Assembly (NCBI RefSeq): GCF_025699485.1
Contig: NZ_JANUXN010000023.1
Location: forward strand, 1 to 55,140
DNA: 55,140 bases
From: Thauera carbonicopians
Lineage (GTDB): Bacteria > Pseudomonadota > Gammaproteobacteria > Burkholderiales > Rhodocyclaceae
Direction: 5' to 3'
Of this stretch, positions 20,492 to 24,632 are shown one piece after another. A program made the translations under genes and the position numbers. The notes under the pieces were generated by a model. That model was not told where the DNA came from, searched no databases, and worked only from the letters and a program-made list of their open reading frames with translations. Position 1 is the stretch's first letter. The number at the start of each line of letters is the position of its first letter.

Positions 20492-21067
20492 TCAATCCTT
20501 CCGGCGGTCACCGGCAGATGACGGATTTCCCGGTGAGCCGTCCAGAATCTCTCGGGTGACGATGGTGATGAGCCCGTCGAAGGAATCGCCGGGCTCATCG
20601 ATGAACCATTGCAACGCGCCATCGCCGGTCCGCGCCATGCGGTAGCATTTCCACTCCCGCGGCGACGGCGGGCCCTGGATGCACAGCCGCTCGCCATCGA
20701 CGCGCCAGCGATGGTTGGCATCGTCGCTACTGGGCCAATGCATGATCTGCGGCTCATCGCTGAAAACGAAGTGGCCATCCGGAGCGAAGTACCGGCGCAC
20801 CACATAGGGACCGTGCTTGTTGCCGGGCGCCTGAGGATAACGGTTAACCAAGGTCTTGCCCGCCAGTGCAGCAGCCAGGGCATCTCCCACCAGATCGGTA
20901 CCACGCGGCGTTTGCTGCGTAGACAATCGCATCCCTTGCAGTGCCTGCTCGCGTTCGCGGCGGCGCTGGTCGGCGGAGTATTCCGAGTCACTCTTCAAGG
21001 TGCAGCCGCCCAGGCCGATGACCAGCAGCGCCAGGGTAGCGAGCGTGAGGCTGGATGATGTAGCCAT
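20492..21067 (-). CDS. Hypothetical lipoprotein
   Basis: A 191-residue predicted lipoprotein of unknown function. The N-terminal signal LTLATLALLVIGLGGC has a lipobox with cysteine at about residue 22, so the mature protein should be anchored in the envelope. After a polar linker, a domain rich in aromatic residues follows (NKHGPYVVRRYFAPDGHFVF, HRWRVDGERLCIQG, REWKCYRMART), resembling small envelope proteins whose paired cysteines could form a disulfide. It converges with tex. I recognise no named family. Confidence 0.72.
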   Translation of the reverse strand: MATSSSLTLATLALLVIGLGGCTLKSDSEYSADQRRREREQALQGMRLSTQQTPRGTDLVGDALAAALAGKTLVNRYPQAPGNKHGPYVVRRYFAPDGHFVFSDEPQIMHWPSSDDANHRWRVDGERLCIQGPPSPREWKCYRMARTGDGALQWFIDEPGDSFDGLITIVTREILDGSPGNPSSAGDRRKD

Positions 21068-21372: not shown

Positions 21373-21768
21373 ATGACGACACAGAATCACCAAGCGGCAG
21401 GCAAGCCGGCCTGTCGCGTTTACGGCATCAAGAACTGCGACACCATGAAAAAGGCCTTCGCCTGGCTCGACGCTGCGGGCATCGCCTACGACTTCCACGA
21501 CTACAAGAAGTCGGGCATCGATACCGCCACGCTGGCACACTGGTGCGGCAAGCTCGGCTGGGAGGCGCTGGTCAACAAGCGCGGCACCACCTGGCGCAAG
21601 CTGTCTCCGGAACAGCAGGCCATCAGTTCCACCGAAGACGCCATCGCACTAATGCAGGCGAACACGAGCCTGATCCGGCGCCCGGTGGTCGAAACGGCTG
21701 CAGGCGAACTGCTGGTCGGTTTCGATCCCGAGCGCTTCGCCTCGGCCCTCAAGGAAGCCGCCCGATGA
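21373..21768 (+). CDS. Spx/ArsC-family protein (YffB-like)
   Basis: A cytoplasmic thioredoxin-fold protein of 131 residues in the ArsC/Spx/MgsR superfamily. The N-terminal strand leads into [17 protein letters not shown], with a single cysteine where arsenate reductase has its catalytic residue; there is no CxxC pair. [14 protein letters not shown] and the end motif [24 protein letters not shown] match YffB-type proteins, whose substrate is not firmly known and may be glutathione-linked. The stop overlaps the Hsp33 start by four bases (ATGA), so the two are translationally coupled. The start at 21373 lacks a strong ribosome site. Confidence 0.85.
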
Positions 21769-22628
21769 GCACATCCCTCCCCTCCAGCTACGTCCAGCGC
21801 TTTCTGCTGGAAGACCTCGACATCCGCGGCGCCGTCGTGCACCTGAGCGACGTCTGGCAGGCGATGCAGGCCGGGCGCGACTACCCGGCCGCCGTCGCCC
21901 GCCTGCTCGGCCAGATGGCCGCGGTGTCGGTGGTGATCGCCGGCAACCTCAAGCAGCCCGGCCGGCTGACCTTCCAGGTCAGCGGCCACGGCCCGGTCAG
22001 CCTGCTGGTGGTCGACTGCGCCGAGACGCTGAACCTGCGCGGCTACGCCAAATCCGAAGGCGCGCCGGCCGACGGCAAGCTCACCGAACTGGTCGGCGAC
22101 GGCCGTCTGCAGTTGTCGCTCGACATCCCCGGCCTGGATCTGCCCTACCAGAGCCTGGTGCCGCTCGAAGGCGACAGCATCGCCGAGGTCTTCGAGCACT
22201 ATCTCGCCCAGTCCGAGCAGCAGCCCGCGGGGCTGTGGCTGGCCTGCGGCGCGGATGCCGCCACCGCGCTGTTCGTGCAGAAGCTGCCGGGCGCGGACCT
22301 GAAGGATCTCGACGGCTGGTCGCGGGTGCAGCAGCTTGCCGCCACCGTGCGCGACGACGAACTGCTCGGCCTTGATGCCGCCGAAATCCTGCGCCGCCTG
22401 TTCGCCGAAGAGAACGTGCGCCTGTTCGAGGCCCGCAGCGTCACGCACGACTGGCCGGCCGACCCGGACAAGGTCGCCACGATGCTGCTCGGCCTGGGTG
22501 AGGACGAAGCGCGCAAGCTGCTGGCCGAACACGGCGAGATCGTGGTGCACGACGACTTGTCGAACCACACCTACCGCTTCGGCGCAGCCGAGGTGGACGC
22601 CTTGTTCCAGGCACGCACGCTGCACTGA
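21765..22628 (+). CDS. hslO: Hsp33-family chaperone lacking the redox-switch cysteines
   Basis: A 287-residue protein aligned along its whole length with Hsp33, the oxidation-activated holdase chaperone. The N-terminal core ([42 protein letters not shown]) and the helical linker ([17 protein letters not shown]) are conserved. The C-terminal zinc domain normally holds a CxC and a CxxC. Here these positions read W-P-A (residues 230-232) and D-D-L-S (263-266), although flanking residues such as LLAEHGEI and YRF align without gaps. The only cysteines are in VVDCAETL and WLACGAD, outside the zinc domain. It therefore cannot bind zinc or switch in the known way. Family membership is firm; activity is open. 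Confidence 0.9.
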
Positions 22629-22764: not shown

Positions 22765-23526
22765 ATGTCCGCCTCCGCGCCTGTCCAGTTCCGCAACACC
22801 ACGCTCGGCGCGACCGTCGCCGTGCTACAGGCCACCGAACCGCCCGCCCTGGCGGACGCACTGCACAAGATGTTCGGCGGCATGCCCGATTTCTTCAATG
22901 GTGAAGCGGTGATCCTCGACTTTGCCGCACTGGCCGAAGTGCCGTCGTCGATCGACTGGGCGGGTTTGAATTCGCTGATGCGCCGCTATCGCCTGCAGCC
23001 GATCGGCGTCTTCAACCTGCCGCCGGGACATGAGGAAGGTGCCCGCCGCGCGGGCCTGGCTCAACTCGACGAAGCAGTCACCGGCACCCCGCGGCCGATC
23101 GAAACGCCTGTGCCGGCGCGCGCGCCCGAGCCACCTGCAGCGGCACCCCAGGCGCCCGCCGCTGCACCGCAGCCGGCAGCGGCGCCGACCATGTTCATCG
23201 ACCGCCCGCTGCGCTCCGGCCAGCAGGTCTATGCGCGCGGCGCCGACCTGGTGCTGGTGGGCGGCGTCAGCCCCGGCGCCGAAGTCATCGCCGACGGCAG
23301 CATCCATTGTTACGGCCCGTTGCGCGGGCGCGCCATCGCCGGCGCGCAGGGCGATGATCGAGCCCGTATCATCACCAGCAATTTCGGCCCGGAACTGGTT
23401 TCCATCTCCGGCGTGTTCCGCACTTTCGAGCGCGGCATTCCCGAGACCATCGCCGGACGTGCGACACAGGTGCGCCTGAGCGGCGCCGAGAACACTCTCA
23501 ACATCGAAGCGCTGCAATCCATCTGA
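22765..23526 (+). CDS. minC: Septum site-determining protein MinC
   Basis: The FtsZ-polymerisation inhibitor of the Min system, 253 residues. The N-terminal MinC_N domain (about 1-105) contains LHKMFGGMPDFFNGEAVILD. A long alanine/proline-rich linker (about 110-145) joins it to the C-terminal beta-helix that dimerises and binds MinD (SGQQVYARGADLVLVGGVSP, GSIHCYGPLRGRAIAGAQGD, then ITSNFGPELVSISGVF). It opens the minC-minD-minE operon, 31 bases before minD. Confidence 0.95.
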   Translation: MSASAPVQFRNTTLGATVAVLQATEPPALADALHKMFGGMPDFFNGEAVILDFAALAEVPSSIDWAGLNSLMRRYRLQPIGVFNLPPGHEEGARRAGLAQLDEAVTGTPRPIETPVPARAPEPPAAAPQAPAAAPQPAAAPTMFIDRPLRSGQQVYARGADLVLVGGVSPGAEVIADGSIHCYGPLRGRAIAGAQGDDRARIITSNFGPELVSISGVFRTFERGIPETIAGRATQVRLSGAENTLNIEALQSI

Positions 23527-23557
23527 ACGCAGCCATACAGCAGAACAAGGGGAAACC

Positions 23558-24370
23558 GTGAAAGTCATCGTGATTACGTCGGGCAAGGGTGGCGTGGGCA
23601 AGACCACCACCAGTGCGGCATTCGCCTCCGGCCTCGCCCTGCGCGGCTACAAGACCGCGGTCATCGACTTCGACGTCGGCCTGCGCAACCTCGACCTCAT
23701 CATGGGCTGCGAACGCCGCGTGGTGTATGACCTGGTCAACGTCGTCAACGGCGAAGCGCGCCTGAACCAGGCTCTGATCAAGGACAAGAACTGCGAAAAC
23801 CTGTTCATCCTGCCGGCTTCGCAGACCCGCGACAAGGATGCGCTGACCGAGGAAGGCGTCGAGAAGGTGCTCGAAGAGCTGCAGCACATGGGCTTCGACT
23901 ACGTCGTCTGCGACTCCCCCGCCGGCATCGAGCGCGGCGCGGTGATGGCGCTGACCTTCGCCGACGAAGCGATCGTCACGAGCAACCCCGAAGTCTCCTC
24001 GGTGCGCGACTCCGACCGCATCCTCGGCATCCTGCAGAGCAAGTCCAAGCGCGCCCGCGAAGGCGGCGAGCCGGTCAAGGAGCACCTGCTCATCACCCGC
24101 TACTCGCCCAAGCGCGTCGAGGAAGGCGAAATGCTGTCGTACAAGGACGTGCAGGAACTGCTGCGCGTGCCGCTGATCGGGGTCATTCCCGAGTCGGAAT
24201 CGGTGCTGCACGCCTCCAACCAAGGCACGCCGGCAATCCACCTCAAGGGCACCGACGTGGCTGAAGCCTACGCCGACATCGTCGCCCGCTTCCTCGGCGA
24301 GGAACGTCCGCTGCGCTTCGTCAACTACGAAAAGCCCGGCCTGATCAAGCGCCTGTTCGGAGGCAAGTGA
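23558..24370 (+). CDS. minD: Septum site-determining ATPase MinD
   Basis: A membrane-associated ATPase of 270 residues that recruits MinC and oscillates with MinE. The start is GTG with AAGGGGA upstream. The deviant Walker A motif is [11 protein letters not shown] near residues 8-18, with [13 protein letters not shown] as the switch I region and [10 protein letters not shown] as the switch II/Walker B. The C-terminal amphipathic membrane-targeting helix is GLIKRLFGG. The minE start follows the stop after one base. Confidence 0.97.
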
Positions 24371-24371
24371 C

Positions 24372-24632
24372 ATGTCCTTCCTTTCCCGCCTTTTCGGCGA
24401 AAAGAAAAAGACTGCGGAAATCGCCAAGAACCGCCTGTCGCTGCTGATCGCCCACGAACGTGCAGGCAACTCCCCCGCCGCCGACTTCCTGCCTGCGCTG
24501 CAGCGCGAACTGATCGAGGTGATCTCGAAATACGTCGCGGTGAACCCCGACGACATCAAGGTCCAGCTCGACAAGCAGGACAACATGGACGTGCTCGAGG
24601 TCAACATCGTCCTGCCGGAGCAGCCGCGCTGA
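24372..24632 (+). CDS. minE: Cell division topological specificity factor MinE
   Basis: A small protein of 86 residues that stimulates MinD ATPase and restricts MinC-MinD to the cell poles. The N-terminal MinD-interacting segment [18 protein letters not shown] (about 17-34) and the dimerisation domain ([20 protein letters not shown]) are both clear. A GGAGG site lies within the minD 3' end. tRNA-Leu follows after only 27 bases with no terminator between them. Confidence 0.96.

Follow-up and report, generated by a model that had tools for sequence, protein, structure and literature searches.

The 287-residue product of an hslO-like gene in Thauera carbonicopians is a full-length Hsp33 that lacks all four zinc- and redox-active cysteines, and represents a real, clade-wide and selected variant of this known chaperone. 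Hsp33 is the textbook thiol-switch chaperone, yet at the positions that define its redox-regulated form the protein carries Trp, Ala, Asp and Ser, and it is not a redox-regulated Hsp33 by this definition. The gene was found in a window of 55,140 nt, the whole stretch of DNA analysed here (assembly GCF_025699485.1, contig NZ_JANUXN010000023.1, positions 1-55,140 of the forward strand). GTDB places the source organism in the lineage Bacteria; Pseudomonadota; Gammaproteobacteria; Burkholderiales; Rhodocyclaceae, and "the family" refers throughout to this GTDB family. Judged from aligned sequences, the window protein is apparently the end state of a stepwise, family-wide change from four to two to no switch cysteines.

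Identity of the protein and its replaced cysteine sites

Full-length homology to Hsp33, as proposed in a sequence-only reading of the window, was recovered by two comparisons. The protein matched the Pfam HSP33 profile (PF01430; E = 1.8e-66, 224.8 bits against a curated cut-off of 21.4) with residues 9-272 on profile positions 2-272 of 273, and phmmer aligned residues 10-278 to E. coli Hsp33 (1i7f; E = 2.9e-37). It shares with canonical redox-regulated Hsp33s (E. coli HslO 1i7f, 1hw7 and 3m7m; B. subtilis 1vzy) the same full-length homology, three-part architecture, linker motifs, predicted fold and a single match per genome, but differs from them in having none of the four zinc/redox cysteines and in scoring below the HslO equivalog cut-off (NCBIfam PRK00114.1; 186.2 versus 244 bits). 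A loose pattern scan of 138 Hsp33s from the family found the two linker motifs to be widespread, with TxxxxE in 133 and RL(F/Y) in 131. Among 16 loci compared, the nearest named record was that of Thauera butanivorans, at 94% identity. A second hslO with intact cysteines was also looked for, and an Hsp33 search of the 48 contigs of the 100%-complete window genome returned this one match only.

The E. coli switch cysteines face W230, A232, D263 and S266 in both the phmmer and the multiple alignment, without gaps at these sites, such that the CxC (C230, C232) is replaced by W230-P-A232 and the CxxC (C263, C266) by D263-D-L-S266, exactly as had been read from the sequence. Site numbers follow the 292-aa form of the E. 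coli protein and coincide with the numbering of the window protein at the switch sites; the usual literature numbering of the E. coli CxC is C232 and C234. The translation contains only two cysteines, C85 and C161, both of which lie outside the C-terminal domain. With all four switch cysteines absent, and on established knowledge of Hsp33, disulfide and zinc switching at the replaced sites cannot operate, in agreement with the earlier interpretation.

The coordinates of the gene, its domains and its upstream neighbour are given in Table 1. This neighbour, a YffB/ArsC-family reductase gene, scored 129.3 bits against NCBIfam PRK10853 (cut-off 121) and was the sole match to its protein in the window genome. 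Directly downstream of hslO lie minC, minD and minE (window 22765-24632), while a scan for promoters and terminators around the hslO-like gene gave none of either kind. On the minus strand at 20492-21067, a 191-residue open reading frame has a lipoprotein-like N-terminus by eye and, scanned minus its first codon, had no Pfam or NCBIfam match.

Table 1 Features of the hslO-like locus, in window coordinates.
Feature	Position	Strand	Basis
YffB/ArsC-family reductase gene; stop overlaps the hslO start codon (ATGA)	21373..21768	+	NCBIfam PRK10853, Pfam ArsC
hslO-like gene, zero-cysteine Hsp33, 287 aa	21765..22628	+	ORF translation, Pfam, phmmer; single match in genome
N-terminal core domain, approx. 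residues 9-174	21789..22286	+	Pfam match; approximate boundary, from E. coli 1-174 as given in PMC7423844
Linker, approx. residues 175-225, with TxxxxE (T194-E199) and RL(F/Y) (R211-F213) kept	22287..22439	+	Sequence read; motifs as defined in PMC7423844
C-terminal former redox-switch domain, approx. residues 226-287, predicted to fold without the zinc cysteines	22440..22625	+	dN/dS, AF2, Foldseek
H228-D-W-P-A-D233 at the place of the CxC region	22446..22463	+	Translation, phmmer and multiple alignment
H262-D-D-L-S-N-H-T269 at the place of the CxxC region	22548..22571	+	Translation, phmmer and multiple alignment

Distribution of cysteine loss across Thauera, the family and its relatives

Within Thauera, the gene was present in 26 of the 29 genomes searched and in 19 of the 21 of high quality. 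All 24 Thauera sequences covering the site lack the four cysteines, so that congeners do not keep them, and all hold H228, D/E233, H262, D263 and H268. No Hsp33 was detected in two high-completeness Thauera genomes (G009 and G018).

At the level of the family, a PF01430 match was identified in 219 of 249 genomes searched, spanning 64 of 68 genera. The 138 Hsp33s read, one per genome (24 from Thauera and 114 others), comprised 66 with none of the four switch cysteines, 65 with two, six with one and one with four, proportions that are biased because the sample was not random but consisted of the best 30 matches, chosen low scorers and others picked by genus. By genus (N = 64), 37 held only two-cysteine proteins, 22 only cysteine-free ones and two only one-cysteine ones, while one genus each combined none with one, none with two, and two with four; proteins without switch cysteines therefore occur in 23 genera besides Thauera. 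Every two-cysteine family protein retained C230 and C266 (65/65), with mostly Arg or Glu in place of C232 and Asp in place of C263 (65/65), and as one cysteine of each pair remains, neither canonical disulfide is possible in this form. The six one-cysteine proteins all kept C230, with Ala, Gly or Ser at 266, and none of the 138 sequences retained C266 after losing C230. P231, K236, D263 and Y270 were nearly always common to the two-cysteine and zero-cysteine proteins of the family.

The sole four-cysteine protein of the family (L045; L045 and L384 both belong to genome G267) grouped with four-cysteine proteins from the class; its origin is probably foreign, by either horizontal replacement or a contaminant contig. 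Among the matches listed, four family genomes had two Hsp33 matches each, of which those in G129 and G217 were split pieces of one gene, the other two genomes being G042 and G226. The hslO gene was split over two frames in the draft genomes G217 (L100/L102) and G013 (L026/L028/L042), reflecting either assembly error or a broken gene.

Outside the family, 190 genomes had a match (116 in the order and 74 more in the class), of which 180 were fetched and 179 covered the four columns; the ten not fetched were eight high-scoring members of the class, a fragment and a split gene. Four cysteines were present in 167 of the 179, whereas nine had the two-cysteine pattern, two had a shifted register and one had a single cysteine. 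The nine two-cysteine proteins came from three other families of the order (f16, f22 and f43) and two families of the class (f104 and f159), the latter represented by L340 and L341, in which Asn replaces Asp263, the first Asp of the usual motif. In the two shifted proteins (L335 and L338), a CxxC replaces the CxC and the register moves by one, with the cysteines still numbering four. L323 (G473), a class-level Hsp33 with one of the four cysteines, lies outside the clade described below and is apparently an independent loss. When the window protein was searched against 349 genomes of the phylum, the listed matches of at least 50% identity (its own excluded) came from f43, f16 and f1, and the others listed were at most 42% identical; 26 other loci fetched from this search, some of them already read, all had four cysteines.

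A tree of 179 proteins, built without the switch columns, placed the 130 two-, one- and zero-cysteine sequences of this type in one clade (SH-aLRT 99, quick method). The two-cysteine proteins of the family and of the three order and two class families, typically C-P-x-D ... D-D/E-x-C, thus fall in one clade with the window protein, but unlike it they keep C230 and C266, do not have the exchange to Trp/Phe230 and Ser266, and mostly do not have H228. Cysteine number required 12 changes on the tree and the zero-cysteine state five, of which two were forced by well-supported branches. A single zero-cysteine clade was rejected by an AU test on the quick tree (p = 0.0135), and the last two cysteines were therefore probably lost more than once. 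The tree itself is unrooted, and the direction from four to two to none rests on Hsp33s usually having four cysteines. The sequence-only reading was therefore right that all four cysteines are gone and that the gene is under selection, but the loss is not a local one: it is the end state of a change that apparently runs through the family.

Selection, replacement residues and predicted fold

The missing cysteines could in principle reflect a degenerating gene or a sequence error, and hslO was undetectable in 2 of 21 high-quality Thauera genomes, so that some members of the genus manage without it. However, the reading frame is intact, the same loss recurs in the 24 Thauera sequences and in zero-cysteine proteins of 23 other genera, and the gene is under purifying selection. 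Across 23 Thauera genes (253 pairs, Nei-Gojobori), median dN/dS was 0.187 for the gene, 0.204 for the N-terminal domain, 0.240 for the linker and 0.115 for the C-terminal domain, and fell to 0.076 at the two switch motifs (246 pairs), although pairwise dN/dS is a crude measure taken here on non-independent pairs, and individual close pairs rank the domains differently (e.g. L002-L004, where the linker is lower). For comparison, 22 within-genus pairs from three two-cysteine genera gave 0.235 for the gene, 0.235 for the N-terminal domain, 0.224 for the linker, 0.203 for the C-terminal domain and 0.162 for the motifs. As the lowest values are found in the C-terminal domain, this domain is constrained rather than released, and because it is the most constrained part of a gene that has lost all four cysteines in 24 Thauera sequences, error or decay is very unlikely. 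Decay and sequencing error were rejected because the gene is under purifying selection and the loss recurs across independent genomes; the earlier description of a frame that is intact, selected and free of decay stands.

The residues that took the place of the cysteines follow a pattern. In the 66 zero-cysteine proteins, position 230 is Trp in 47, Phe in 11 and Tyr in one, and position 266 is Ser in 62 and Gly in four; each of the 59 with an aromatic residue at 230 has Ser or Gly at 266. The co-change of 230 and 266 traces to two events on well-supported branches and at most seven in all, and a sign test was not significant. H228 is present in 61 of 66 zero-cysteine, 13 of 65 two-cysteine and none of the 167 four-cysteine proteins, while D263 and K236 hardly vary in either the two- or the zero-cysteine form. 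At the level of sequence, this replacement pattern points either to packing of the core or to metal binding by His and Asp.

A metal site, which the His gained at 228 would fit, is the principal alternative to packing: the Cys4 zinc centre would have been exchanged for a redox-inert centre of H228, D263 and H268, perhaps with H262 or D233, that binds metal but forms no disulfides. The combination H228, D263 and H268 is indeed found in 55 of 66 zero-cysteine proteins compared with 6 of 65 two-cysteine proteins, and H228, H262, D263 and H268 occur together in all 24 Thauera sequences. However, D263 is kept in all 65 two-cysteine proteins and is therefore not specific to a new site, most zero-cysteine proteins are related, so that these counts are not independent, and H228 and H268 are not lost jointly. 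Indeed, nine of the ten zero-cysteine proteins missing one or both of these histidines retain one, and these counts do not support H228 and H268 as a strict pair. We consider such a site unlikely, though the most credible of the alternatives to packing.

Structure prediction bears on whether the domain can fold in the absence of the cysteines. For the window protein, the top AF2 model reached a mean pLDDT of 83.8, with residues 231-280 at 73-91 by ten-residue block, but it was built from an alignment of 14 rows, and three of the five models scored poorly (mean pLDDT 53-59); a two-cysteine relative was itself modelled poorly from the same alignment (mean pLDDT 59.9). Foldseek returned six matches with E <= 0.001, all of them Hsp33, including two chains of B. 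subtilis Hsp33 1vzy at TM 0.76-0.78 (rmsd about 4 over 288-291 columns, gaps counted), a structure termed the reduced form in PMC7423844. The E. coli chain 3m7m, which is missing most of the C-terminal domain, still reaches TM 0.71, indicating that the C-terminal domain is only loosely matched and its placement little informed. In the better models, then, the C-terminal domain is predicted to be folded without the cysteines.

This prediction speaks weakly against a further alternative, in which the absence of zinc permanently destabilises the linker and leaves Hsp33 a constitutively open holdase, much like linker mutants engineered in E. coli. Normal activation involves the release of zinc, and a single linker mutation renders E. 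coli Hsp33 constitutively active, according to PMC10598452; an algal Hsp33 that has lost one cysteine and zinc binding is described in PMC7423844 as showing greater sensitivity to mild heat or oxidation. However, neither the strong constraint on the C-terminal domain nor its predicted fold would be expected were the domain no more than a lost clamp, and an open holdase seems rather improbable.

Candidate function of an Hsp33 without its thiol switch

In E. coli, oxidation frees the zinc and causes the switch domain and linker to unfold, thereby opening the holdase (PMC10598452, PMC8614738); in inactive Hsp33 the linker masks the binding site (PMC10598452). Binding and unfolding of native EF-Tu, which exposes it to degradation by Lon, is reported to require the reduced protein with its switch domain folded (PMC8614738). 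A survey of 1579 homologues is reported in PMC7423844 to have found the four cysteines fully conserved, the second being not conserved in fewer than 10 sequences. The same source cites Segal and Shapira 2015 for a Chlamydomonas Hsp33 that has lost one cysteine and zinc binding and is more sensitive to mild heat or oxidation; on this account it resembles the window protein in having lost a conserved cysteine, with its zinc binding lost too, but differs in being eukaryotic and in having lost only the one.

Given this background, our preferred reading, to which we assign an even chance, is that the window protein is a redox-blind Hsp33, in which packing has taken over from cysteine and zinc in holding the switch domain. 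With C230 replaced by Trp and C266 by Ser, the former cysteine-zinc centre would no longer sense oxidants, and we propose that the domain would be kept folded by packing of Trp230 against the small residue at 266 and by polar contacts of K236, D263 and D264. With its switch locked in this way, the protein would permanently act as reduced Hsp33 does; in E. coli, the reduced form uses its folded switch domain to bind native EF-Tu. The holdase state would be reached only once the linker and C-terminal domain are melted by heat or some other stress. We infer the direction of change, the packing mechanism, the EF-Tu-type activity and the thermal gating alike; an EF-Tu-type activity would fit because the switch domain is predicted to fold without redox chemistry and is under strong selection.

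Redox sensing might alternatively have moved elsewhere, either to the core cysteines C85 and C161 or to the upstream YffB/ArsC-family protein, which would modify or bind Hsp33. The yffB gene overlaps hslO by ATGA in the window and lies directly upstream in 53 of 64 zero-cysteine and 56 of 63 two-cysteine family loci with room for it, compared with none of 61 four-cysteine outside loci with room (106 had none); within the family, it was directly upstream at four of six one-cysteine loci but not at the sole four-cysteine locus. However, no yffB match was found at the nine two-cysteine loci outside the family (roughly 2.3-2.5 kb each side), and the pair is therefore a family-level arrangement rather than a feature of the cysteine-poor subfamily, which weakens the case for YffB as its obligate partner. 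The yffB-hslO pair belongs to the genome organisation of the family, and a functional link between the two is only a candidate one. Nor is C85 supported as a new sensor, as Cys is frequent at this position across Hsp33s (91% of zero-cysteine, 95% of two-cysteine and 59% of four-cysteine proteins), while the column of C161 is Cys in only 47% of zero-cysteine proteins. Relocated sensing is improbable, marginally more so than an open holdase.

No paper on Hsp33 or HslO in Thauera, Azoarcus or the Rhodocyclales was found in the literature searched, from which subscription journals were mostly absent, and a cysteine-less, two-cysteine or redox-independent Hsp33 of this type was undescribed in the titles and opening lines of abstracts among the papers listed, with the same restriction. 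That 137 of 138 family Hsp33s are without two or more of the switch cysteines is at odds with the fully conserved picture in PMC7423844. Viewed across the family, the findings may describe a stepwise dismantling, in which the second cysteine of the CxC and the first of the CxxC (to Asp) went first, followed, probably repeatedly, by the remaining two (to Trp/Phe and Ser, a His being gained as well), with the switch domain remaining folded and under strong selection throughout. If so, the conserved job of this domain would not be oxidant sensing but either client binding of the EF-Tu type, the little-studied function of the reduced protein, or heat gating by way of a redox-inert core. We hold this account tentatively, at slightly less than even confidence. 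The cysteine-poor Hsp33s of the family offer natural separation-of-function proteins, with which one can test directly whether Hsp33 has a conserved role that depends on a folded switch domain but on no redox chemistry, and how a zinc-thiol switch may be taken apart while the fold is kept.
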